From positions 1-22,534 of IMG/VR virus record IMGVR_UViG_3300042893_002574: a stretch of 22,534 nt of DNA; one strand, 5' to 3'. The stretch is from a virus. The notes beneath the pieces were generated by a model that was not told the origin of the DNA, made no database searches, and saw only the letters and a program-made list of their open reading frames with translations. Positions 117 to 22,534 of this stretch are shown here, piece by piece (position 1 is the first letter of the stretch; each line of letters starts with the position of its first letter). The translations under genes were made by a program, and so were the position numbers.

Positions 117-353
117 TTAAAGGAACCACCATAGCAAACCGGCTGTCCAAACGGGAATTTGAGGTATAAAATTTAACATAATAGGACCATCTTTTGTTTT
201 AATGCCAACATAAACCCATAGAGATGCGCCTACCAAATGGAACATTGGACCAATAGGGTAAAGGTCGAAGGCATGACACCAGATTGCGACAAAAACTAAA
301 GATGGAGCTAACCATCTAATAATATTGAATGATCTACTACGACTACTGTTCAT
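117..353 (-). CDS. Small membrane protein, unknown function
   Basis: A 78-residue protein with a short polar N terminus (Asn, Ser, Arg-rich) followed by three hydrophobic stretches, about residues 13-30, 38-50 and 60-78. It ends in a Trp-rich segment (GLLWWFL). It very likely sits in the inner membrane with two or three passes. The chosen start is the ATG at 353, preceded by GGAGG and a five-base spacer; a TTG four codons upstream is less likely. It overlaps the end of the oxygenase gene by 11 bases, so the two are probably translationally coupled. Small membrane proteins of this shape occur in aquatic phage genomes, but I cannot name a family with certainty. A holin role is possible but has no support beyond size and hydrophobicity. 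Confidence 0.7.
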   Translation of the reverse strand: MNSSRSRSFNIIRWLAPSLVFVAIWCHAFDLYPIGPMFHLVGASLWVYVGIKTKDGPIMLNFIPQIPVWTAGLLWWFL

Positions 354-1026
354 AACTACCTCCAAAAAAGAATACGGATACTATCCACTTGTCAGACGAC
401 AATGGCATAAGGCCACTATGAGGGTAGAGCCAATGAGAAGGAAAAAGTGCCACCCTCCCTGCAACGGCATCGATAGTTAAATCTTGGAGCGGAAATTGTG
501 TCCCACCACCATGCGAAACCGTGTTTAGGTATAATACCCCCCCCAACACCCTAGAGCCCGCTATCCAAGGTGCCCCATCAATATGTTGTTGGTAAAAACC
601 GGTATTTTCTTTATATTGTTGAATTTGGAAACTGGTGTCGCCAATTACAAAATTATCGGAATGCGGAGGAAATTGTAAGTGATAAAAGCTGTGTTGGTAT
701 ACTCGCATCATCCTCAGGATTTCATTTCTTAAGCGAAAATCAAATTCATCCCTTAGGGGATTAATGTCGCCATAATCCTGATCTAATCGCCAGTCACAAG
801 AGACCTTGACATGAGGCATTACACCAGACATAGTTCTCCCACTAAATGACTCTGAAGGGTTGCTTTTACAAAAATCTATCAGATTGGAGCAAAACTCTTC
901 GGAGAAAACATTGTCGGCATATGCTATGCCGGAAGATTTGCCTGCAGGCCATTTTATCTCGTTAAAAAGATAATAGCTATTAGACAAATCTATTTCAAGA
1001 TAATCTTCTTGTTTTTCTATATTCAC
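343..1026 (-). CDS. 2OG-Fe(II) oxygenase, prolyl 4-hydroxylase-like
   Basis: A 227-residue non-haem iron dioxygenase of the double-stranded beta-helix fold. These enzymes couple 2-oxoglutarate decarboxylation to hydroxylation of a protein or small molecule. Visible ligands are the HxD pair His148/Asp150 (in QHIDG), the distal His203 (in YPHSG) and Lys213, ten residues after the distal histidine. That His-to-Lys spacing is the 2-oxoglutarate-binding arrangement of collagen prolyl 4-hydroxylase; many other family members use Arg. The stretches LGGVLYLN and FPSHWLYPHSG are typical core strands. The N-terminal third (to about residue 110) is helical and less conserved. The start is taken as GTG at 1026, overlapping the upstream gene by 32 bases; the Shine-Dalgarno sequence there is weak and TTG at codon 14 is an alternative. 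It is the third member of the halogenase cluster. The substrate is unknown; fibre proline hydroxylation is only a hypothesis. Confidence 0.88.
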   Translation of the reverse strand: MNIEKQEDYLEIDLSNSYYLFNEIKWPAGKSSGIAYADNVFSEEFCSNLIDFCKSNPSESFSGRTMSGVMPHVKVSCDWRLDQDYGDINPLRDEFDFRLRNEILRMMRVYQHSFYHLQFPPHSDNFVIGDTSFQIQQYKENTGFYQQHIDGAPWIAGSRVLGGVLYLNTVSHGGGTQFPLQDLTIDAVAGRVALFPSHWLYPHSGLMPLSSDKWIVSVFFFGGSYEQ

Positions 1027-1747
1027 GTGCTATCCAGCCTGATTCAGTTGGTCCCAAAACATCAACATCACTATGTACACCATACACGTACTTAAAGTCG
1101 CTTTCGTCCATCATCTTAATATTACCAAAGTCCTCGGCCCTCTTAAATGGGACTAGGTGAACTAAGGGCTCATTATGGGGAATTATAAATTCTTTATCTG
1201 TTTTTATATTTAATACCACATTAATTTGGTGATAAAAATCTGTATGAACTATACCAGCAACAATATCATAGTTTGGGTTAGGTTCATGCATAATGCCCAG
1301 CTCAATTGTTGACCAACCGGGCGCTGTTATAAATGCATAAGGTGTTACCAGCTTTGGGTAAGGACTGTTTTCGATAGACCTAACCCCGGTCATTGGGCAC
1401 TCCCCAGTCATTTCGTAAGGGAAGAAATCCGCACCAAAGATAGTATTAGAAACGGAAAACTGCGCGGCCTGAACGTCCCAACGCCCAGTTAATTCATCCG
1501 GTACAAACCTGAAGGTTGTCCATGCTGGTATTGTAATTCCTATGTCGACAAAATCTTTAATACCAGAACATCTTCTGATCCCGCTTTTTGGCGAAAGCCT
1601 AAACCAAGCTGGACGTTTTTTGGGGCTATTTACGTAGGGTTCTTCACCCATTTCAATCAAGCGATTATCCGAAGGGACAACGCATATCTCACCAGATTTG
1701 ACTGATTTACGCAGTTTATTATAAGTTTTATTCTTTTTCGATATCAT
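995..1747 (-). CDS. Protein of unknown function between halogenase and oxygenase
   Basis: A 250-residue soluble protein with no signal peptide or membrane segment. After a basic N terminus (Lys/Arg-rich to about residue 18) it has a Trp/Pro-rich core, with RPAWFRL near residue 45, a Cys-containing stretch IRRCSGIKDF near 57-66, then IGITIPAWTTFRF. The second half contains many alternating beta-strand patterns and the segment PHNEPLVHLVPF. The short motif order (aromatic-rich PAW, then Cys, then IPAW) is shared in my recollection with uncharacterised phage proteins, but I assign no function. ATG at 1747 overlaps the halogenase end by 20 bases, and its own end overlaps the oxygenase start by 32 bases. 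Expression is therefore tied to both neighbours, and a shared pathway is likely. A cupin-like or small-molecule-binding fold would fit the beta-rich pattern, but that is a guess. Confidence 0.75.
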   Translation of the reverse strand: MISKKNKTYNKLRKSVKSGEICVVPSDNRLIEMGEEPYVNSPKKRPAWFRLSPKSGIRRCSGIKDFVDIGITIPAWTTFRFVPDELTGRWDVQAAQFSVSNTIFGADFFPYEMTGECPMTGVRSIENSPYPKLVTPYAFITAPGWSTIELGIMHEPNPNYDIVAGIVHTDFYHQINVVLNIKTDKEFIIPHNEPLVHLVPFKRAEDFGNIKMMDESDFKYVYGVHSDVDVLGPTESGWIAREYRKTRRLS

Positions 1748-3200
1748 TTAAAGCTTCGGCGTGATCAACTAACTCAACGCCCATCCTCTGACTTTCTATA
1801 TCTCTACTCAAGTAGTGCGTCTCATCATATACCGAAAGATTACCCAATGTCCAATCCAAATTAGAAACCTTCACAAGACCCTGACCTTGGGCGACGTGCA
1901 AGAAGTGTGCCACCTGAAACATCTCTCCATTGTTTGCTGCTATATAATCCCTAGGAAGAGTAGTCTCCCTAAGTAAATTTAGTAAATCTTGAAGAGTATC
2001 GTTTACTGGCATATTTGATGCCGCAGTCCAAAAATCGGTGTCATCTCTATCGGTCATATAGTGCATCCTTATCATTGTAAGGATGTTATCTAGCATGATA
2101 TTAAACGACTTATTATAAGCTTTCTGCATGGCCGTATTGCCCGGCTCATAGGAAGCGACATATGGCACCAACTGGTCGATCTGCTGTATAGTCGAAGCTA
2201 TTGAGGTTGCTTCTAAGGGTTCAACAAAAGATGACGAGAGTCCTACCGCGCAACAATTCTTTACCCACGGCTCCCGCAAATGGCCGGGGTCAAAAGTAAA
2301 TGACCTAGTGGCTCCGATGCTTTGATCACGTTTTTCACTAATTTCCTTCACGGCTGAATCATGGTCTATAAAGCTTGAAGAATATACGTAACCATTGCCC
2401 CTTCTAAACTGGGTTGGTATTTCCCATGACCAGCCGGAAGATAATGCTTCAGCGATGGTATATGGCTTAATTTTCCCATTTTCTTCGCCCTCTGTCGGGA
2501 ATGCAAGGGCAGAATCGACTAAGAGGTATTTTGAAAAACTATTCCATTTTGGGTTGTCTACTTTTGATATTAGCACCTTGTTAAATCCAGTGGCATCAAT
2601 CCAAAAATCCGCTTTAAAACCATTAGCCTCTTTTAGATCAATCGACTCTATATTTCCGCTTTCGGCATTCAGGTTAACGTCCTCCACGAATGCGTCGATC
2701 AACTTGATATTTCGCATAATGCATAATTTTGTTAAATATTTATTTAAAGAAAACGTATCGAAATGAAATTGATTAACATTTTTGTGTAAGCCATTTTTTT
2801 GAATCTTATCCTGACGAAGACCAACAGATCCCGTATAATCCGTCAGCAATTTTCCTTTATGAATAAGGTAGGAATATAGCGGAAATAATCTCCAAGCAAA
2901 TATTTCTTCATCGCCAGAAACACTGTGGAAATAGTCTGGATTTTCTTTTGACCAATTTATAAAATTAATGCCATATTTATGTGTAGCATTTGTCTCTACA
3001 ATCATATCCAAAAGTGGTATATCGCAGTAATTCAAAAACTTCTTCCAGTGCTCAGTACTACCTTCTCCGACGCCAATTATACCAACTTCACTAGAGGCAA
3101 CAAGCGTAATTTCGGAAAAAGGAAAAGCTGAACGCAACATTAAGGCGGATATCAGCCCCGCTGTTCCTCCGCCAACAATTCCAAAAGAAATGGGTTTCAT
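1728..3200 (-). CDS. Flavin-dependent halogenase (tryptophan-halogenase family)
   Basis: A 490-residue flavoenzyme that should use FADH2, O2 and halide to make hypohalous acid for halogenating an electron-rich substrate. The FAD-binding GGGTAG lies at residues 10-15, right at the N terminus. The GVGEGS segment is at 43-48. Lys75 (in THKYGINF) is in the place of the catalytic lysine of PrnA-type enzymes. The family signature WxWxIP is present as Trp257/Trp259/Pro262. The later segment NCCAVGLSSSFVEPLEATSI (315-334) corresponds to the conserved region carrying the active-site glutamate. Length and motif order match the family, so it looks intact. ATG at 3200 has AGGAGA four bases upstream; an in-frame upstream extension to 3257 is just overlap with the previous gene. 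A related cyanophage enzyme, VirX1, has been shown to iodinate diverse substrates; whether this one acts on free or protein-bound aromatics is unknown. No flavin reductase is visible here, so the host must supply reduced flavin. Confidence 0.93.
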   Translation of the reverse strand: MKPISFGIVGGGTAGLISALMLRSAFPFSEITLVASSEVGIIGVGEGSTEHWKKFLNYCDIPLLDMIVETNATHKYGINFINWSKENPDYFHSVSGDEEIFAWRLFPLYSYLIHKGKLLTDYTGSVGLRQDKIQKNGLHKNVNQFHFDTFSLNKYLTKLCIMRNIKLIDAFVEDVNLNAESGNIESIDLKEANGFKADFWIDATGFNKVLISKVDNPKWNSFSKYLLVDSALAFPTEGEENGKIKPYTIAEALSSGWSWEIPTQFRRGNGYVYSSSFIDHDSAVKEISEKRDQSIGATRSFTFDPGHLREPWVKNCCAVGLSSSFVEPLEATSIASTIQQIDQLVPYVASYEPGNTAMQKAYNKSFNIMLDNILTMIRMHYMTDRDDTDFWTAASNMPVNDTLQDLLNLLRETTLPRDYIAANNGEMFQVAHFLHVAQGQGLVKVSNLDWTLGNLSVYDETHYLSRDIESQRMGVELVDHAEALNDIEKE

Positions 3201-3201
3201 A

Positions 3202-3888
3202 CTATCTCCTAATAAAGCACGTATATGAAATGTAACCTTGAAGATGATAGCTGTCAAATTGATCTAACGAATGGATATAGTTGTGAACCTCTTCGGCAAA
3301 CGTATTCTCCGAATGGTAATACTCGCTACCATTAGAGGCGTTTGATAACATAAACATTCCACCCGGGTTAACAGAGCCCAAAATACCGCTTAAGACGTTT
3401 TGGTCTATTAAAGATGTTATATGGGCTGTTGCGAAATCGACTTTCGGCATTTCATACCTTATTGTATCCCAAGATAACGTCTCGACGTTATCGATGGAAT
3501 CTGTCGCAATAACTTCGTTCGCTATCCCCAGCAAAGTAGTGTTAGCTGTATACACTGTGCTTACAGATTCAGATAAATATATAAGCGAAGCTGGACTATC
3601 CATTATAAAAGCCGTTTGTGCCGAAGTTATTCTTGCAAAGAACGTAAATATTTTTGAAGCTGCATGAATCATTGGGGCTAAAATTTCGCCACCCGGAGCC
3701 CCTGCAACACCAAAAGTGTGAAAATCAATACTTGTGCTAGCTGTATTAATATCCATATTTTGTTCAGTATAATCATACATATCACGGGAAAGTTTTATAT
3801 AAGAATCAAGATCAGGAAGTGTTTGACTCTTGGTGACCCTAGCATTCTCTTCCGACCTCTTTGCGATGCCCAAATAAAGATCCGGCAT
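3202..3888 (-). CDS. Rossmann / methyltransferase-like protein of uncertain activity
   Basis: A 228-residue protein whose second half looks like the back half of a class I SAM-dependent methyltransferase. It has a strand plus acidic residue (IATDSIDN, about 127-134), a following strand (KVDFATAHI, 149-157), a helix, then NPGGMFMLSNAS (174-185) with the PGG turn usual after the fifth strand. The front half has the right strand-helix rhythm but no glycine-rich SAM-binding motif I that I can see. It may be a degenerate enzyme or a different Rossmann protein. ATG at 3888 has GAGGAG with a four-base spacer; the TTG four codons upstream is rejected. It begins one base after the preceding stop and ends one base before the halogenase ATG, so it belongs to the same translational unit. 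Function is inferred at low confidence. Confidence 0.7.
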   Translation of the reverse strand: MPDLYLGIAKRSEENARVTKSQTLPDLDSYIKLSRDMYDYTEQNMDINTASTSIDFHTFGVAGAPGGEILAPMIHAASKIFTFFARITSAQTAFIMDSPASLIYLSESVSTVYTANTTLLGIANEVIATDSIDNVETLSWDTIRYEMPKVDFATAHITSLIDQNVLSGILGSVNPGGMFMLSNASNGSEYYHSENTFAEEVHNYIHSLDQFDSYHLQGYISYTCFIRR

Positions 3889-3889
3889 T

Positions 3890-4111
3890 TTACTCCTCAA
3901 ACCCTAGTGTTCCTGCAAACATTGCGATATTAGATGCTTCGTGCTTAGCCTTGACTAAAGATGAACCCGTCAATGTTAAAGTTAAACCAATTTTAATGTT
4001 TCTTAAATTTTCTGGCGTTATAAGAACCGGCTCTAAACCAGCCAATACGCAAATATAGGCTGATCTTTCTGCGTAGTACGCACTTTGATCTGACCTGTCA
4101 TACGTTATCAT
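3890..4111 (-). CDS. Small protein, unknown function
   Basis: A 73-residue protein with no recognisable family. It has a Tyr/Ala-rich start (QSAYYAERSAYICVLAGL), a beta-like middle (IKIGLTLTLTG) and a helical Lys/Ala-rich end. No signal peptide or definite membrane helix is present. ATG at 4111 is preceded by GGAG at six bases; an upstream TTG is less likely. The gene overlaps the end of the previous small gene by 14 bases and is followed one base later by the methyltransferase-like gene. The tight packing and good ribosome-binding site argue that it is real. A role in fibre assembly or in the adjacent modification cluster is possible but unproven. Confidence 0.6.
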   Translation of the reverse strand: MITYDRSDQSAYYAERSAYICVLAGLEPVLITPENLRNIKIGLTLTLTGSSLVKAKHEASNIAMFAGTLGFEE

Positions 4112-4272: not shown

Positions 4273-4512
4273 TCAATCAAGCTCCGCCAGCTTCGCGTCG
4301 ATAATCGCAAGACCACCACTAATTTGGCCTATCCTCATAACAGCGTCTGCTATAGACTGAAAATTATCCGGATCGAAGTTTGCGTAATCAAATGTGTCAG
4401 GATCTACGCCAGACCTAATAAGTATTTGCGCCAACTCTAGAGTCAAAGACTCTTGGGCTTGGAACAGGAAATCTTTTTTACTTTGATCATTTAAGTTGTC
4501 AAAAAATGACAT
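4273..4512 (-). CDS. Small acidic helical protein, unknown function
   Basis: A 79-residue acidic protein, mostly helical. Residues 1-33 form an amphipathic region (QESLTLELAQILIRSG) and residues 52-79 a second helix (IADAVMRIGQISGG and on). A short Asp/Phe/Asn-rich linker (PDTFDYANFDPDNF) joins them. ATG at 4512 has a strong AGGAGG with a short spacer. It follows the last glycine-rich fibre gene by eight bases. The two-helix shape could suit a small chaperone or assembly factor for the fibres, but nothing in the sequence proves this. Confidence 0.65.
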   Translation of the reverse strand: MSFFDNLNDQSKKDFLFQAQESLTLELAQILIRSGVDPDTFDYANFDPDNFQSIADAVMRIGQISGGLAIIDAKLAELD

Positions 4513-4520
4513 TTGTCCTC

Positions 4521-5669
4521 CTAATTGTTTAAAATAATATAACCTACACCCGAAGTTGCTGTACCTGTGCCAGAAGAACCAGAAGAAACTGTGTAAGTTT
4601 GACCAGAAGGCGTAGAGTCCGAGACTATTATTATAGCACCTCCGCCACCTTTATATCCGGTTTCCCCAGTGCCCCCGGTTTTTGTTGGTGAACCAGCACC
4701 TCCGGTACCTCCAGCCCCGCCATGATAATTGCGGTAGGCGTGAAAAGCTGCGTGATTGCAATTGCCTTTACAATCTGTATTAAAACATCCATGACTAAAA
4801 TGCACACTATTAGCGGTATATCCAGTATTACCATTAGCCCCAGAACTTCCTGCCGCACCTGTCGACCCGGCAGATCCGGCAACCCCAGATTTACCTTTAG
4901 CAAATATGGTTCCAGTCCCAGCAATTGTCTTGGCAAATATTAGAACCAATCCGCCACCGACACCACCTGCACCACCCGCGCCACCAGCGCCAGCGCCACC
5001 GCTATTAGGCGCAGTTCCCGGACTACCGGCATTTCCCGCATTAATCACCGCACCGTTTGAATGATTGGTGGTGTCATTTGAATGATGGTGGGAACCGTTG
5101 CCGAAACTACTGTAAATCAATCCAGCAGATCCCGCATTTCCGCTTTTACCAGTCCAGTTATCATTATTGGTGTATGCAGGGTCCGTGTGACCTTGAACAC
5201 CAGTTATCCCAGCGGTTCCACCATACAGTAGGCCGGCAGATTGCCCGGCGCTAGGTGTAAAAAGCCTTGTTGCTAACTCTCCCTCAAGTAGCCTTTCAAT
5301 ATTTTGCACCAACCACACAGGTGCTGAGTTTGTGGTGCTACCGCCACCAGCCCCACCTAAACTGTAAGTTATGCCCGTTAGTGTTGTTGGTCCTATAAGA
5401 GTGTTTGAAAATGATGTCGAAGGCTCACCACCGCCAGCTGTACCTACCCCTATGAAACCATTATTTGTCAATGTACCCTTAACGAAAACCCTATAGCCAT
5501 CAGTCAACAAAGTAATACCATTATTAACAGTCAAGTTGTTATAATACTTATCAGATGTCAAAGTAGTATTAGTTGAAATCACAACATCGCCATCAGTTCC
5601 TTGACCGTAAACTGAATCATTCCCAAGTCTTTGAATTGTTTTTGTATTAATTCTTTCAATTGATCCCAT
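4521..5669 (-). CDS. Glycine-rich tail fibre / adhesin protein with Cys/His cluster
   Basis: A 382-residue virion protein, probably a fibre tip or adhesin. The N-terminal part (about 1-75) holds the repeat-like module seen in its upstream neighbour: a VYGQGTDGDVVI segment, then strands YYNNLTVNNG and YRVFVKGTL. The rest is dominated by glycine-rich runs (GGAGAGGAGGAGGVGGG near 225-242, GGAGGTGGAG after 317). Two unusual patches stand out. One is His-rich (HHH at 194-196 followed by another His). The other (about 289-318) contains C-x4-C-x3-C flanked by six histidines. Together they could bind a metal ion. The start is ATG at 5669, one base after the previous stop; the longer frame to 5741 merely overlaps the upstream gene. 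Host-receptor recognition is inferred from composition and position. Confidence 0.78.
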   Translation of the reverse strand: MGSIERINTKTIQRLGNDSVYGQGTDGDVVISTNTTLTSDKYYNNLTVNNGITLLTDGYRVFVKGTLTNNGFIGVGTAGGGEPSTSFSNTLIGPTTLTGITYSLGGAGGGSTTNSAPVWLVQNIERLLEGELATRLFTPSAGQSAGLLYGGTAGITGVQGHTDPAYTNNDNWTGKSGNAGSAGLIYSSFGNGSHHHSNDTTNHSNGAVINAGNAGSPGTAPNSGGAGAGGAGGAGGVGGGLVLIFAKTIAGTGTIFAKGKSGVAGSAGSTGAAGSSGANGNTGYTANSVHFSHGCFNTDCKGNCNHAAFHAYRNYHGGAGGTGGAGSPTKTGGTGETGYKGGGGAIIIVSDSTPSGQTYTVSSGSSGTGTATSGVGYIILNN

Positions 5670-5670
5670 A

Positions 5671-6402
5671 TTACACCAACTGCATAAAATTATAAGTTCC
5701 CGATGCGGCTCCCGAATTTCCAGTGACATCAGTTGAAACATTAGATGGAAGAGCTGTGAGCGATGAAACTAGCAAAATCACTCCGCCACCTCCGCCAGTA
5801 GCGCCACCCGGAGCGGCAAATTTTGCGTTCGTTGTAGTAGCAGTGCAAGCGATATATCTTGCTGTACAAATAATAATACCGCCACCTATTCCGGTTGATC
5901 CTCCTGCACCGCCCCGCAGATACGTTGGGTTTGTAGAACCGCCAGTAAGAGAATAGCCCTTGATTGCCTGCAGGGGTTGTTGATAGTACGTTGAACCGCC
6001 AGTTGCAGGAACTGGAGCAGTAGCAGTTCCGGCTCCAGCTCCAGTTCCTGATCCGCCGAGAGAATGAGTTACACTTGCTGTAGCAGCAGCGCCCTGCTTG
6101 ATACTTCCATCGGTAGAGTATCCGCCAGTGTAACCTATAGTTGAAGCGTTTCCAAGGGTAAGCAAGTTTTTTACAAAAATTCTGTATCCATTTGGCGCCA
6201 ACCTAACGCTGTCGTTAAGGGTTAAATTATAACAATAAATGTCTCTAGTCATTGAGTAAACGCTAGATGAAGGAACCATGCTTAAGATTGTTGTTGTGCC
6301 GTCAAATACTACAGAACCATCGACAGCATTCCCATAAACTATATCTGGGGCGTCCAGAAACTGTGCTAAGGAATTACTCCCGTATTTGACTAGGCCCCCC
6401 AT
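5671..6402 (-). CDS. Glycine-rich tail fibre protein (paralogue of its downstream neighbour)
   Basis: A 243-residue structural protein. Its N-terminal region carries IVYGNAVDGSVVFDGTTTIL followed by strands around CYNLTLNDSV and YRIFVKNLLTLG. This module is common in phage fibre or adhesin proteins and is shared with the next gene. From about residue 90 the sequence is rich in Gly, Ala, Ser and Thr (GGSGTGAGAGTA, GGAGGSTGIGGG, PGGATGGGGG), ending in a beta-rich tail. ATG at 6402 overlaps the preceding stop by one base (TAATG), with GGAGGAG just upstream. It is shorter than its downstream neighbour and lacks that neighbour's Cys/His patch. A role in host attachment is inferred. Confidence 0.75.
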   Translation of the reverse strand: MGGLVKYGSNSLAQFLDAPDIVYGNAVDGSVVFDGTTTILSMVPSSSVYSMTRDIYCYNLTLNDSVRLAPNGYRIFVKNLLTLGNASTIGYTGGYSTDGSIKQGAAATASVTHSLGGSGTGAGAGTATAPVPATGGSTYYQQPLQAIKGYSLTGGSTNPTYLRGGAGGSTGIGGGIIICTARYIACTATTTNAKFAAPGGATGGGGGVILLVSSLTALPSNVSTDVTGNSGAASGTYNFMQLV

Positions 6403-6746
6403 TAAGCTCCTCCGACCACGTCTTCTTCAATGCCAAATATAGCAATATTCACAGATGTTGCGGATGAACATAAAGCTTTTATTGTTTCCGTAGATTGCAT
6501 TACCATAGAGCAGTTAAATGCAATAGTTTCATTTGCGGCAATAGATACAGCACTTAAAATGTCGAAAGTATTATTTTCTGTTCCAGATGTATATAATCTA
6601 ACTGTTATAGTTTTAGCTGAAGCAGTAGTATTAGCTAATATTATCTGCTTAACAATAGTCCTAATGTTACTTGGGACAGTATAGTATATTGCACTTGATG
6701 CCGTGAGCTGTGTTGGTCCACCCAACCTTTTTTGCGTAATTGCCAT
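6402..6746 (-). CDS. Small beta-rich virion protein next to the fibres
   Basis: A 114-residue protein with a strongly alternating beta-sandwich pattern: AIYYTVPSNIRTIVKQIILANTT, then TITVRLYTSG, VSIAANETIAFNC and a C-terminal strand VNIAIFGIEEDV. The strand order (dimerising segment, TIVKQIILAN, TITVRLY, ANETIAF) is familiar from small phage proteins encoded beside tail fibres, presumed fibre-associated or decoration proteins. ATG at 6746 has GGAGA upstream with a seven-base spacer. It follows the collagen-like gene after 41 bases and is coupled to the next gene by TAATG. The exact role is unknown. Confidence 0.7.
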   Translation of the reverse strand: MAITQKRLGGPTQLTASSAIYYTVPSNIRTIVKQIILANTTASAKTITVRLYTSGTENNTFDILSAVSIAANETIAFNCSMVMQSTETIKALCSSATSVNIAIFGIEEDVVGGA

Positions 6747-6787: not shown

Positions 6788-11590
<4,803 letters not shown>

Positions 11591-12603: not shown

Positions 12604-14271
12604 TTACTCACCTGTCCCTGGTCCGACCTTAACGGTAAAGTGTATTTCTCTTACAGTAAAATAAGGATGCAGTATAAGGTCAACAAAAACTGTTCTATGT
12701 TCGTCATTTCCCCTGTATATATTCACCGAGAAATCGCGTATCATACCAACACTAGTTATTGTTCTTAGGTAATTTAAGACATCAGATTTAAAACTGGCAT
12801 AATCTATCGTGCCCAACTTTCTTTTACCTAAAGAAACTATTTGTTGAGAAACCTTACCAACAACCCTAACTATAGATGCTGACCAAAAAGAGGAATAATC
12901 TTTTGGATTGTCATCTGGCCAACCGTTAGCTAATGTGTTATCAGAAGCAACAAATGTTTCATATAACACACCCCTTCTTCCTAGGGGGCTAAATGTTGCT
13001 ACATTTAATCTTTTATTTGCTAATCTTTTAATTTCATCTTTAGTAAATTTATACCCAACAAGACTAGAGATAAGGGGAAGCTTTGTGTAGGAAATGCTTT
13101 CATTAATTCTTGCTGTTGACATTACAGCTGCTGCTGTTACTGCCAAAGAACTAGTGAAAGGCAAATCTACTTGAAGCACATTTAAGACACCCTCACCAAT
13201 AACGACCATCCCAAATTTTCCTAAGTCTTTATCGTTAAGAATATTATCCTCACTAGAGTCGGTAAATAAATCTATTCCATAATAATATTTCATAATTTGA
13301 TATATAACTTTAGTAGAATAAATTAAACTACCATTTGAATTTCTAGATATTCGCCTATCAGACTCTAGCTTATCCGCTAAACCCTCAACACCGCTAGCGA
13401 TTCTAGTCCCTATAATACCTAATGATACATTTCCCGTATTTTGATACCTAAGTAAACAGCTCTTTAACAAAGGAGTTAGAAAGTCCACGTCGCCAGAGTC
13501 ATAAAATGGAGCTTCCAGTGGGACTATTATTTCAGGGAAATCCTCTAGCTCCAAAACGCTATATGCTTCCTCTAGTCTTTGTGCATACCTTTGGTAAAAT
13601 GTTAGGTTATTAAATTCTACCCTTTCGGTCTTCCTGGCTTCAGCGCTATTGTAATCGAATGGTAGATACTCTGACATCGGGGCAACTGCCATTAGCCAAA
13701 TATCTCTAGCTCCAGCATTGTAGGCTTCTAGAAGCCCTCTGATTAATGAGCTATCAGGATCGGCTCCAAGCATATTAATGGTTTCCTTAAGGTTAATAAC
13801 CCTATGTGGAACATTTAATTCTAAACCATTACCATGACCGAGTAAAAGTAACCTATCTGTCTTACCTACACTTAGGTCGGTATACATTGGAATTTCTTTT
13901 ATCATTCCACTTAAAGATGGAGGATCTATGATTGTGCCAAGTGGAACTTCAGGTTCAGTTACCGTAAAACTTTCGTAATATACCTGATTAACTCCATCAA
14001 TTTCAAATTCCCATTTTGCAGCATACGTTCCAGGCGTAACATAATCATCCAGATATTGCGTAAATATATAAGAACCCGTGCCTGATCTTTCGAAGTTCTC
14101 GCTAGAGATTACTGGAGTAGCGCCATTGACATAAGAATAAGGGCCATACAAAATTGCAGTTACATTTTTAACTACAGAAAATAATACCTCAGGTGGATCT
14201 ACCGGCTCGTTATCGGAGTTAGTAAAATTTTTATAGAATGTAATTTCATTATCATAAACTATACTTTGCAC
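12604..14271 (-). CDS. Contractile tail sheath protein with N-terminal Ig-like domain
   Basis: A 555-residue sheath subunit, the clearest sign of a contractile tail. Residues from about 125 on carry sheath features: RLLLLGHGNG, then LLEAYNAGARDIWLMAVAP (about 185-203), a long variable middle, PFTSSLAVTAAAVMSTARINESISY, and a C-terminal domain beginning near residue 465. That domain, with DVLNYLRTITSVGMIRDFSV and the final HFTVKVG strands, normally interlocks neighbouring subunits. Residues about 15-110 form a separate beta-sandwich with DPPEVLFSV, GTGSYIF and PGTYAAKWEFEI segments. It resembles Ig-like add-on domains of phage structural proteins and is not part of the core sheath fold. The start is GTG at 14271, overlapping the previous TAG by one base. 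Confidence 0.9.
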   Translation of the reverse strand: MQSIVYDNEITFYKNFTNSDNEPVDPPEVLFSVVKNVTAILYGPYSYVNGATPVISSENFERSGTGSYIFTQYLDDYVTPGTYAAKWEFEIDGVNQVYYESFTVTEPEVPLGTIIDPPSLSGMIKEIPMYTDLSVGKTDRLLLLGHGNGLELNVPHRVINLKETINMLGADPDSSLIRGLLEAYNAGARDIWLMAVAPMSEYLPFDYNSAEARKTERVEFNNLTFYQRYAQRLEEAYSVLELEDFPEIIVPLEAPFYDSGDVDFLTPLLKSCLLRYQNTGNVSLGIIGTRIASGVEGLADKLESDRRISRNSNGSLIYSTKVIYQIMKYYYGIDLFTDSSEDNILNDKDLGKFGMVVIGEGVLNVLQVDLPFTSSLAVTAAAVMSTARINESISYTKLPLISSLVGYKFTKDEIKRLANKRLNVATFSPLGRRGVLYETFVASDNTLANGWPDDNPKDYSSFWSASIVRVVGKVSQQIVSLGKRKLGTIDYASFKSDVLNYLRTITSVGMIRDFSVNIYRGNDEHRTVFVDLILHPYFTVREIHFTVKVGPGTGE

Positions 14272-16101: not shown

Positions 16102-17154
16102 TCAGGAAACAGTCTTCATGAGCTCAACTTCATAAGCTCTGGTGAGCGAAACGTTCTTGGCGGCGGTAATACCTTCGCCATCACCCATCATAACAATATC
16201 GTAACGCTCTTTCATCTTAAGCGCTTGGATATCACGGGCGGGATCATTCCAACCGTCTGTGGTCATATCATCCTTAACAAGGAGGACACCAACCTCATTA
16301 CGATCAATGAGGAAAACGTCCGACTTAGCGGGAGTTGAACCACTCTTAGCCGTAAAGCTAACGAATGGGGAAACAAGGACGTTAAGACCAAGGGGGGCGG
16401 AAGCGTTAGCTGCCTGATCCCTTGAAGTAACGCTCATGTCCCATCTTGGCCAACTAGTGCCGTTCATACCACGGAATTCGGGGTTACGAGCGAAAAGGCT
16501 CCACATAAGTGGGTGAATGATGAAATCAGTTGGTACATGGTTTTCTGCCATTAGTACAGCAGCCATCTCAATGACATCGTCCCAGATGAGAGTACCGTTA
16601 GCGGTACCTGCTGCACCAAGACCAGTGGTATTAGCAATACCAGCATCGTCATTATCGAAAACTACAGTAGCTGCGCCAGCGAATCTCGAAAGAGCAATTT
16701 GCTCCTTAAGACGAGCCATTGCACGCCCAGCTGCGCGAACGTGAAGGCCAACAATGTCCCAAAGGCTATCTGCGATAACTTCTTCGGTAAAGGCGACTTT
16801 AACGCCCTTCTTGCTGACTTTACCTTCGATTTGCTTTGCGAATGCAAGAGCTTGCTCTGGGTATTCTTGTCCTTCGGGAATTTCATCGGCCTGAATCGCG
16901 TTAACTGCGGGGAACTCAAGTGAGCGACCCTTCCCAAGACGCACAACCGAAAGAAGAGGGGTAACCAGTAATTGTGGTTCTGCCGCTTCCTTTAGAGTGC
17001 GAGAAATAACTTTGGGGAAAAGGATTGGAGCGTCGGGAGAAGCAAAAGCTTCCTTTACCGTTACTCTGCGGTCATCATCGATGAAACCATCCTCAGTTAA
17101 TACAGATTCCCAGGCGTCATAATTCGCGAGGAGTTCTTCAATTGGTTTTGCCAT
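16102..17154 (-). CDS. Major capsid protein (HK97-fold type)
   Basis: A 350-residue capsid subunit. The N terminus is helical and acidic (about 1-55). It is followed by LFPKVISRTLKEAAEPQLLVT and a segment LEFPAVNAIQADEIPEGQEYP (about 97-117) typical of the capsid extended loop. Then come the spine helix LWDIVGLHVRAAGRAMARLKEQI, the peripheral loop with GTLIWDDVIEMAAVLMAENH, and the late strands (NVLVSPFVSF, DVFLIDRNEVGVLLVKDD, YDIVMMGDGEGI). ATG at 17154 is preceded by AGGAGG, and the region between could fold a small hairpin. Flanking genes (protease/scaffold and decoration-like upstream, connector-like downstream) confirm the assignment. It uses noticeably more C- and G-ending codons than the AT-rich tail genes, as expected for a very highly expressed protein. 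Confidence 0.88.
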   Translation of the reverse strand: MAKPIEELLANYDAWESVLTEDGFIDDDRRVTVKEAFASPDAPILFPKVISRTLKEAAEPQLLVTPLLSVVRLGKGRSLEFPAVNAIQADEIPEGQEYPEQALAFAKQIEGKVSKKGVKVAFTEEVIADSLWDIVGLHVRAAGRAMARLKEQIALSRFAGAATVVFDNDDAGIANTTGLGAAGTANGTLIWDDVIEMAAVLMAENHVPTDFIIHPLMWSLFARNPEFRGMNGTSWPRWDMSVTSRDQAANASAPLGLNVLVSPFVSFTAKSGSTPAKSDVFLIDRNEVGVLLVKDDMTTDGWNDPARDIQALKMKERYDIVMMGDGEGITAAKNVSLTRAYEVELMKTVS

Positions 17155-20610: not shown

Positions 20611-21381
20611 TTATTCTAAAACCGAATGATTTCTTGGGTCTCCGCCACTTAAATGCTGATCCAACATCCACTTATGCATGATGTGTGATGCATACAGATC
20701 TGAAGCGCAATAAAGATTGTAACCAGCGCGCCCGCACTCCGCCGACCACCCCAGGTCCTCTCCCTGAGGATGCCATATATATCTAGCATTACTGTAAACT
20801 TCTGGATTCATCATAACTGCCGCCATAATAATATCTGATTTAAAAATTTTTCCCATAGGATAAGAATCTAATTGCCTAGAAGCTTTACCCCCAACATGAT
20901 TAGACCACGTCATAACCGAAGGGAAGTCGCATCCCTTAGGGTACATGTAAGATAGTGGAGATATTGCATCTATACCATCTCGCTCTAAATTAAAATATAA
21001 CTTCTCTAGCGTATGGGGATTATCTATCAAAATATCTGAATCTAAAGAAAAGTACTTATCTGGCTTCACCCTAAGGGCAGTATCAAGTAGGCTATTTCTT
21101 AAATCAACCATTTTATAATATGAATTTTTAGTCCACGTTCTATGGCCATCTTCGTGGGTGTAATGATTTAGGTCTTCCCTTATGACTGCGTCAAAAAAGG
21201 CGACTTCCCGATGAGAGTTGGCCCAATCGTACAAGATTGAATGAGTTTCATCATCATTTGGCCCCAACTCAAATACGAATCCAATATCAGACAACGGTAT
21301 TGTTTGATTCTCTATTGCCTCAAACCAATATGGTAATATCCAAGACCTTTGGTAGGCTGGGCATCCTATAAGTATTTTCAT
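20611..21381 (-). CDS. Glycosyltransferase, GT-A fold
   Basis: A 256-residue nucleotide-sugar-dependent glycosyltransferase. It opens with MKILIGCPAYQRSWILPYWF, a typical first strand and helix. LRNSLLDTAL precedes the metal-binding DxD motif, here Asp114-Ser-Asp116 (KYFSLDSDILID). Near the C terminus HPQGEDLGWSAECGRAGYNLYC has the acidic residues expected for the acceptor or catalytic base. The pattern resembles the Anp1-like GT-A group. There is no membrane segment, so it acts in the cytoplasm, on DNA, a virion protein or a host polymer. It lies between the portal-proximal genes and the protease gene, an unusual place. ATG at 21381 lacks a recognisable Shine-Dalgarno sequence, so expression may be low. 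The acceptor is unknown. Confidence 0.82.
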   Translation of the reverse strand: MKILIGCPAYQRSWILPYWFEAIENQTIPLSDIGFVFELGPNDDETHSILYDWANSHREVAFFDAVIREDLNHYTHEDGHRTWTKNSYYKMVDLRNSLLDTALRVKPDKYFSLDSDILIDNPHTLEKLYFNLERDGIDAISPLSYMYPKGCDFPSVMTWSNHVGGKASRQLDSYPMGKIFKSDIIMAAVMMNPEVYSNARYIWHPQGEDLGWSAECGRAGYNLYCASDLYASHIMHKWMLDQHLSGGDPRNHSVLE

Positions 21382-21697: not shown

Positions 21698-22534
21698 TTA
21701 ATATTCGTCCTCTGTAATTATATCATCTACTAGGCTAACTATTTCATTAACTAAATCATAATCATAAGATCTTCTAATATTCGGAGAAGTTCTAGTTCCA
21801 TATTGATTGCTTGGCCTAATCATATTGTCAGAACCTTTTCTATTATTTTTCGGTTCTTTAGTTGTTTGATTTTGCGTTGCGTTATTAGATGGTGCGGCAT
21901 CACCGCTCATTTCCGGCTTCATACCCAACTCTAGTCGTGCTTCTTGTATAGACTCGATACCAGCTTGGACTTTCTGTATTATGTAAGCGCCCTTTTTGAC
22001 TTCGGTATCGGAATCTATTTCATTAAACTGGAAATGGCACCTATCTGACATACCGTCAAGCTCCGGATTAGCGTACGGGTCAAATCCGCCTTCGACTAAA
22101 ATTTCATTAAAAATGAATAGCCTCATAGCATCTTCAAACTTACGTTGGTATTCTTTAATCTTATCGTAAAGTGCTATATCTAATCTGTCCGTCATAGCTT
22201 GAGAAGCATTAGATGTCATACCAAGGTGGTGAGGGTAAACGCCAAGACCTATAGCAACTCTTTCCTTAAAGTGCTCAAGATACTTAGAAGCATCTAGCGC
22301 ATTACCGTTAGCGCCCAATATCTCAACATCATGCCTATTAGACATAATTAAGGCACCTTCAGATCTCAGGCCTTCTATTTCGTTAGAAGCTTTATCTAAC
22401 TCCTCGTCCGTAGCAGGCTGCTCATCTGTTCCAACCTTAAACTTATAAAGAGGAAATAATTCCCTATGCACCAGGTTCTGTATGTCTTCTTCTATTTGCC
22501 TAAGTGAAACTATATCATCTATGGTAGAAGCTAT
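21698..22534 (-). CDS. Portal protein, C-terminal part (cut by window edge)
   Basis: The reading frame is open to the right edge, so the gene is partial at its 5' end; 278 residues are present. Its first visible residues (SLRQIEEDIQNL) continue directly into HRELFPLYKFKVG, so the GTG inside is not a start. Portal features are the helix YLEHFKERVAIGLGVYPHHLGM, the following TDRLDIALYDKIKEYQRKFEDAM, and HFQFNEIDSDTEVKKGAYIIQKVQAG leading to QEARLELGMKPEM. These match the wing, stem and crown region of phage portal subunits, which form the dodecameric DNA gate of the head. The C-terminal 70 residues are polar and low in complexity. It stands at the start of the head gene block, as expected. Confidence 0.85.
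   Translation of the reverse strand: MASTIDDIVSLRQIEEDIQNLVHRELFPLYKFKVGTDEQPATDEELDKASNEIEGLRSEGALIMSNRHDVEILGANGNALDASKYLEHFKERVAIGLGVYPHHLGMTSNASQAMTDRLDIALYDKIKEYQRKFEDAMRLFIFNEILVEGGFDPYANPELDGMSDRCHFQFNEIDSDTEVKKGAYIIQKVQAGIESIQEARLELGMKPEMSGDAAPSNNATQNQTTKEPKNNRKGSDNMIRPSNQYGTRTSPNIRRSYDYDLVNEIVSLVDDIITEDEY

Follow-up and report, generated by a model that had tools for sequence, protein, structure and literature searches.

Ever since prnA genes came to light in cyanophages, it has been asked what halogenases do for a virus. The window, i.e., the whole 22,534-base stretch of DNA that was analysed (virus record IMGVR_UViG_3300042893_002574), carries a gene for a flavin-dependent halogenase (FDH) close to genes for tail fibres. 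Halogenases of its clade are linked almost strictly to one fibre family, which provides a named candidate substrate and sharpens a "purpose unknown" into a testable hypothesis of fibre modification. In our reading, to which we assign a probability of about 0.45, the halogenase is part of a cassette for tail-adhesin maturation, by which residues of the fibre are modified.

Genomic context and presumed expression of the halogenase gene

The features of the window discussed in the following are:

343..1026, minus strand: 2OG-Fe(II) oxygenase of a family nearest to prolyl 4-hydroxylases, with HxD...H as H148, D150 and H203
995..1747, minus strand: DUF6065-like protein of 250 aa (phrog_7084), with a remote match to the dUTPase-core (beta-clip) fold
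1728..3200, minus strand: FDH of 490 aa (P0001; PF04820), with GGGTAG at 10-15, K75, WSWEIP at 257-262 and E330
3202..3900, minus strand: MTL, a 232-aa partner with faint methyltransferase signals, present in 10 of 78 loci
4273..4512, minus strand: C6, a small conserved gene of the block
4521..5669, minus strand: FIB2, a glycine-rich fibre/adhesin with variable His-containing segments, the candidate substrate
5671..6402, minus strand: FIB1, a glycine-rich fibre protein whose N-terminal region resembles that of FIB2
6402..6746, minus strand: ITQK, a gene encoding 114 aa that often precedes FIB1
6788..11590, minus strand: collagen-like tail fibre of 1600 aa with G-x-T / G-P-T repeats, near the prolyl-hydroxylase-like gene and a possible oxygenase substrate
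12604..14271, minus strand: tail sheath
16102..17154, minus strand: major head protein
21698..22471, minus strand: portal

The start of FIB2 was set at the methionine of MGSIERIN by comparison with homologues. Chance is excluded as the source of the halogenase reading frame, and coding on the plus strand of the same interval was rejected because of stops throughout. A first-pass annotation of this DNA had placed the gene in structural-gene surroundings, as is borne out by the portal, major head, tail sheath and fibre genes around it. The same annotation had described overlaps with both neighbours. At the stop end, the halogenase does overlap the downstream DUF6065-like gene by 20 nt, but the upstream gene MTL ends one base ahead of the halogenase ATG, and an overlap on this side would only result from use of a TTG at 3257.

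The close gene packing supports co-expression of the halogenase with virion genes, and the enzyme would presumably be made late, together with virion proteins. A late-promoter-like TATAAATA was not found within 8 kb upstream of the halogenase. In the entire window this motif occurs six times compared to 1.8 expected, a number reached by 0 of 100 shuffles, and all six sites (11802, 14555, 14893, 15249, 15525, and 20313) lie in the head/tail region. Sigma-70-like sites in the window were not above chance (15 vs. 17 expected).

Identity of the halogenase

The Pfam profile Trp_halogenase (PF04820) matches the window halogenase with 326 bits (E 5e-97, cut-off 21) and PHROG 2928, "tryptophan halogenase", with 351 bits. 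The motifs listed in the first-pass annotation were all found at the residues named, including GGGTAG, whose FAD-binding GxGxxG glycines are G10, G12, and G15, the WxWxIP motif (W257-S-W259-E-I261-P262), and E327PLEATSI334. In an alignment of 47 sequences, K75, W257, E330 and the glycines of GxGxxG do not vary, and the catalytic K75/E330 correspond to Lys79/Glu346 of PrnA. The stretch FVEPLE fits FX[DE]PX[EFL], and the overlapping Fx.Px.Sx.G is present only in variant form (A331, S333). The catalytic Glu is followed by A-T-S compared to S-T-G in PyrH-type Trp halogenases, a variant which is common in the viral family.

An AlphaFold model of the enzyme (pLDDT 92, pTM 0.92) has PrnA, RebH, and PyrH as its best structural matches. 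With these enzymes as well as BrvH (6frl) and Xcc4156 (6y1w), the window halogenase shares the common fold (TM about 0.82-0.91), GxGxxG, the catalytic Lys and Glu, and WxWxIP. It differs from the PrnA/RebH type by a sequence identity of only 24-28%, by A-T-S instead of S-T-G, and by being phage-encoded and fibre-linked. In profile scores, enzymes of the Trp-halogenase type exceed 280 bits, and those of the CmlS/PltA type stay below 60 bits. Single-sequence alignments to RebH/PyrH stop before the C-terminal Trp-anchoring strap, where the profile alignment is weak as well. Structure prediction had been proposed as a check that could overturn the assignment; the predicted fold is complete and PrnA/RebH-like. 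By family, motifs, and predicted fold, the gene is thus an intact flavin-dependent halogenase of the active type, in agreement with the first-pass annotation.

Relatives of the halogenase and of the phage

All 67 matching records of annotated phages have less than 60% identity to the window halogenase, and the nearest enzymes of isolated phages are those of S-SCSM2R, S-H38, and P-SSM2 (36-39%); the isolated phage HTVC008M carries a related gene as well. Relatives in IMG/VR reach 94% (L002), 61% (L013), and 59% (L014), with many at 41-56%, and one viral scan confirmed 585 related stretches. Within the GTDB genomes, the two nearest matches (L093 and L094) share the gene block of the window, and the remaining ones are bacterial enzymes with at most 36% identity.

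A tree of 90 rows, calculated with a quick method, places the window enzyme among halogenases, in a clade of 22 rows which has full support, consists of uncultured-phage enzymes, and does not include Syn10. P-SSM2 is found in the sister viral clade, and the two halogenases of Syn10 (the VirX1 lineage) are located on a distant branch near PyrH and some bacterial rows. VirX1, which had been suggested for comparison, turned out to be a poor model, being also among the weaker Trp-halogenase matches in the PDB, and was rejected as the nearest model. VirX1 and the Syn10 enzymes are viral FDHs of the same superfamily, but Syn10 features a tandem halogenase pair on its other branch, and no FIB1/FIB2-DUF6065 block was seen there. 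In P-SSM2, a 2OG oxygenase is encoded two genes downstream of the halogenase and tail-fibre-assembly genes are located upstream; unlike in the window, a FIB1/FIB2-DUF6065 arrangement was not seen in P-SSM2, S-H38, or S-SCSM2R. The major head protein of the window is nearest to that of Bacillus phage KLEB27-3 (43%), followed by Moorella phage MTATph1 (40%), so that a cyanophage origin of the window phage is not supported.

A conserved gene block around the halogenase

For a survey of the gene neighbourhood, ORFs were called in 78 non-redundant viral loci, and the neighbouring genes were clustered and labelled by profiles. Clade A, defined by the score to P0001, comprises 41 loci, one of which (L050) groups with clade B in the tree. 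Every clade A locus contains a single halogenase copy, directly adjoined by a DUF6065-like gene in 39 loci. Likewise, a 2OG-Fe(II) oxygenase is encoded at most four genes away in 39 of the 41, against a background of only 2-3% of the genes at ranks 6-10 from the halogenase, and the glycine-rich fibre genes FIB1/FIB2 are located nearby in 37. The usual order is ITQK-FIB1-FIB2-C6-C5-2OG-(MTL)-FDH-DUF6065-(2OG), and where it is shuffled (L038, L041, L042, L044, and L072), the members still stay together. No gene family outside the block is common to more than 14 of the 41 loci, so that the block stays constant in surroundings that vary. A block common to related phages could reflect descent, the wider genome kinship being only partly measurable from fragments.

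Reciprocal searches, in which FIB2 and FIB1 served as queries and the halogenase was not used, yielded 157 loci. A halogenase is present in 132 of them; of the 25 without one, 24 break off no farther than about 1.6 kb from the fibre. After removal of near-copies and restriction to loci that reach 4 kb or more past the fibre, 54 loci were retained, with an FDH in 53, a DUF6065-like gene in 53, and a 2OG oxygenase in 50. The linkage of 53/54 spans halogenase identities down to about 41%. The sole exception (L228; IMGVR_UViG_3300027839_000036) features the fibre pair, with a His-poor fibre, but no FDH. The fibre in isolated phages gave no match in our search, in which low-complexity filtering may mask matches. 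Among the titles and abstracts listed from the open-licence PubMed Central literature, there was no account of a halogenase-fibre cassette, and no paper on DUF6065 was found in this literature.

In the exceptional contig L228, the fibre pair is followed by a lipoprotein-like gene of 1633 aa and then by a ferredoxin-like gene. Judged by these bacterial-looking neighbours, the contig is possibly bacterial or a different element. In a search for further FDH-free fibres, the L228 fibre matched only its own contig.

The 37 loci of clade B show a different picture. Here, 2OG genes are likewise found near the halogenase (31/37), and 3-5 halogenase copies occur in 18 loci, but FIB1/FIB2 are present in just one, so the fibre link is specific to one clade and not universal among viral FDHs. 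A parallel to the phage block was found in the bacterial relative L107 (886-9015), featuring the order TonB receptor - SapC - Cupin_8 - halogenase - halogenase, which, going by gene sizes, recurs in several Gammaproteobacteria. As in the phages, an FDH is located beside an outer-surface protein and an oxygenase-type partner, the Cupin_8 protein, which we take to be of the 2OG-oxygenase type. However, Cupin_8 stands in place of the P4H-like oxygenase, and SapC in place of DUF6065.

The candidate substrate and the partner genes

FIB2 combines a conserved domain at its N-terminus with glycine blocks flanking variable segments, and recalls, by layout only, polyglycine-type tail adhesins, e.g., gp38. 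In the non-glycine segments of 67 non-redundant copies, His accounts for 12.2% of the residues compared to 2.0% in the remaining proteins encoded at these loci (6.2-fold), with a slight increase for Tyr (1.17-fold) and no enrichment of Trp (0.69-fold). Examples of His-rich copies are those of L014 and L250. The FIB2 of L228 contains 0.7% His and every other copy of this set at least 2.6%, the contrast to a fibre without FDH thus being drawn from one contig. With 10 His in 382 aa (2.6%), the FIB2 of the window is among the least His-rich copies accompanied by an FDH, which weakens the case for His as the principal target in this phage. FDHs do not classically target His, and the enrichment of this residue in FIB2 may be for metal binding alone. 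At clade B and cyanophage loci, it is mostly 2OG enzymes that rank as the most His-rich proteins.

For the profile of the 2OG oxygenase family, the nearest PDB entries are prolyl 4-hydroxylases (E 1.9e-21), a group that modifies proteins. The iron triad HxD...H is intact in the window oxygenase, which appears prolyl-4-hydroxylase-like by profile resemblance only. The predicted model of the DUF6065-like protein (pLDDT 88) shows a remote resemblance to the core fold of dUTPases (Foldseek E 3e-5, TM (target) about 0.4-0.76, 6-16% identity), and just one C-terminal stretch aligns with dUTPase by sequence; a function as active dUTPase was therefore not adopted. A firm assignment of MTL as methyltransferase was rejected, as its matches are weak.

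Proposed role and alternative explanations

The conserved block suggests that some phages may chemically modify the protein with which they grip the host. In the scheme that we infer, including the halogenating activity, the halide, the protein substrate, the modified residues, and the benefit, FIB2 (with FIB1) would be made late in infection along with the halogenase, the 2OG-Fe(II) oxygenase, and the DUF6065-like beta-clip protein. A host reductase would supply FADH2 to the halogenase for the formation of HOX, which would pass through the K75/E330 tunnel and halogenate those side chains of the variable fibre loops that are electron-rich (His, Tyr, Trp). The 2OG oxygenase would hydroxylate other residues of FIB2 or of the collagen-like fibre, and the DUF6065-like protein might help to present or recognise the substrate. 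Receptor binding, metal binding or stability would then be tuned by the modified loops. In a more general form, which we consider tentative and somewhat doubtful, many uncultured phages would possess a dedicated adhesin system, in which an FDH and prolyl-hydroxylase-like oxygenases halogenate and hydroxylate a receptor-binding fibre with loops rich in His or other modifiable residues. Precedent exists in FDHs whose substrates are ribosomal peptides and, in some cases, proteins, such as the peptide-modifying SrpI, MppI, ChlH, and MibH (PMC12615548, PMC12518702). Unlike the proposed fibre, the targets of the latter are small RiPP precursors, and these enzymes are set beside the window enzyme by description only; a review of peptide FDHs does not mention phages.

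Alternatively, the halogenase could act on a small host metabolite (e.g., indole, phenol, free Trp or a pigment-derived aromatic) as the product of an auxiliary metabolic gene placed beside the fibre by chance. This would be in line with the small-molecule substrates of most characterised PF04820 enzymes, with the broad small-molecule range described for VirX1 (PMC8407142), and with the usual classification of cyanophage prnA as an auxiliary metabolic gene (PMC10452541). However, biosynthetic, transport or reductase genes were not recognised near the halogenase, and a small-molecule gene cluster was consequently rejected; together with the almost invariable linkage to one fibre family and one prolyl-hydroxylase-like family, this renders a metabolite substrate unlikely. 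A modification of a host surface protein or envelope molecule by halogenase and oxygenase, e.g., blocking superinfection, appears very improbable in view of the linkage to a phage fibre, although bacterial relatives adjoin TonB receptors and SapC.

The linkage might also result from hitch-hiking, with the fibre region as a cargo hot spot and the block being co-inherited without a shared function. Tail-fibre regions are recombination hot spots, and the clade B halogenases occur without FIB fibres, but a reciprocal linkage that holds over such divergent halogenases and the cohesion of the members in rearranged orders make this explanation improbable. An FDH-fold oxygenase which hydroxylates or oxidises a fibre residue alongside the 2OG oxygenase, and does not halogenate, is decidedly improbable, since the Lys, Glu, and WxWxIP that define halogenation are all kept. 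The A-T-S after the catalytic Glu would be compatible with such an activity, and QhpG, whose fold is FDH-like, adds two hydroxyl groups to a protein Trp (PMC7876137), but is closer to CmlS than to Trp halogenases.

If the halogenase indeed contributes to the maturation of a tail adhesin, halogenation would join the chemistry of virus particles, and host recognition would be altered beyond the genetic code. This would suggest that phages adjust their host binding chemically as well as by sequence, and the large family of related enzymes would become a source of candidate protein halogenases.

Additional observations

Between the structural genes of the window, a 256-aa protein with a weak match to Anp1 glycosyltransferases is encoded at 20611-21381. 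Within the viral halogenase family, the catalytic Glu is absent in just two of 116 members (L052 and L055). Both are tandem halogenase paralogues (L052:5518-6990 and L055:5512-6990) in which Gly replaces this residue (FLEPLGSPGH), and, as far as the sequence indicates, they are perhaps inactive or altered in function. In clade B, halogenase paralogues form islands with many 2OG oxygenases, DUF6445, and DUF6065-like genes, e.g., in L061, L065, L066, L073, L082, L091, and others.
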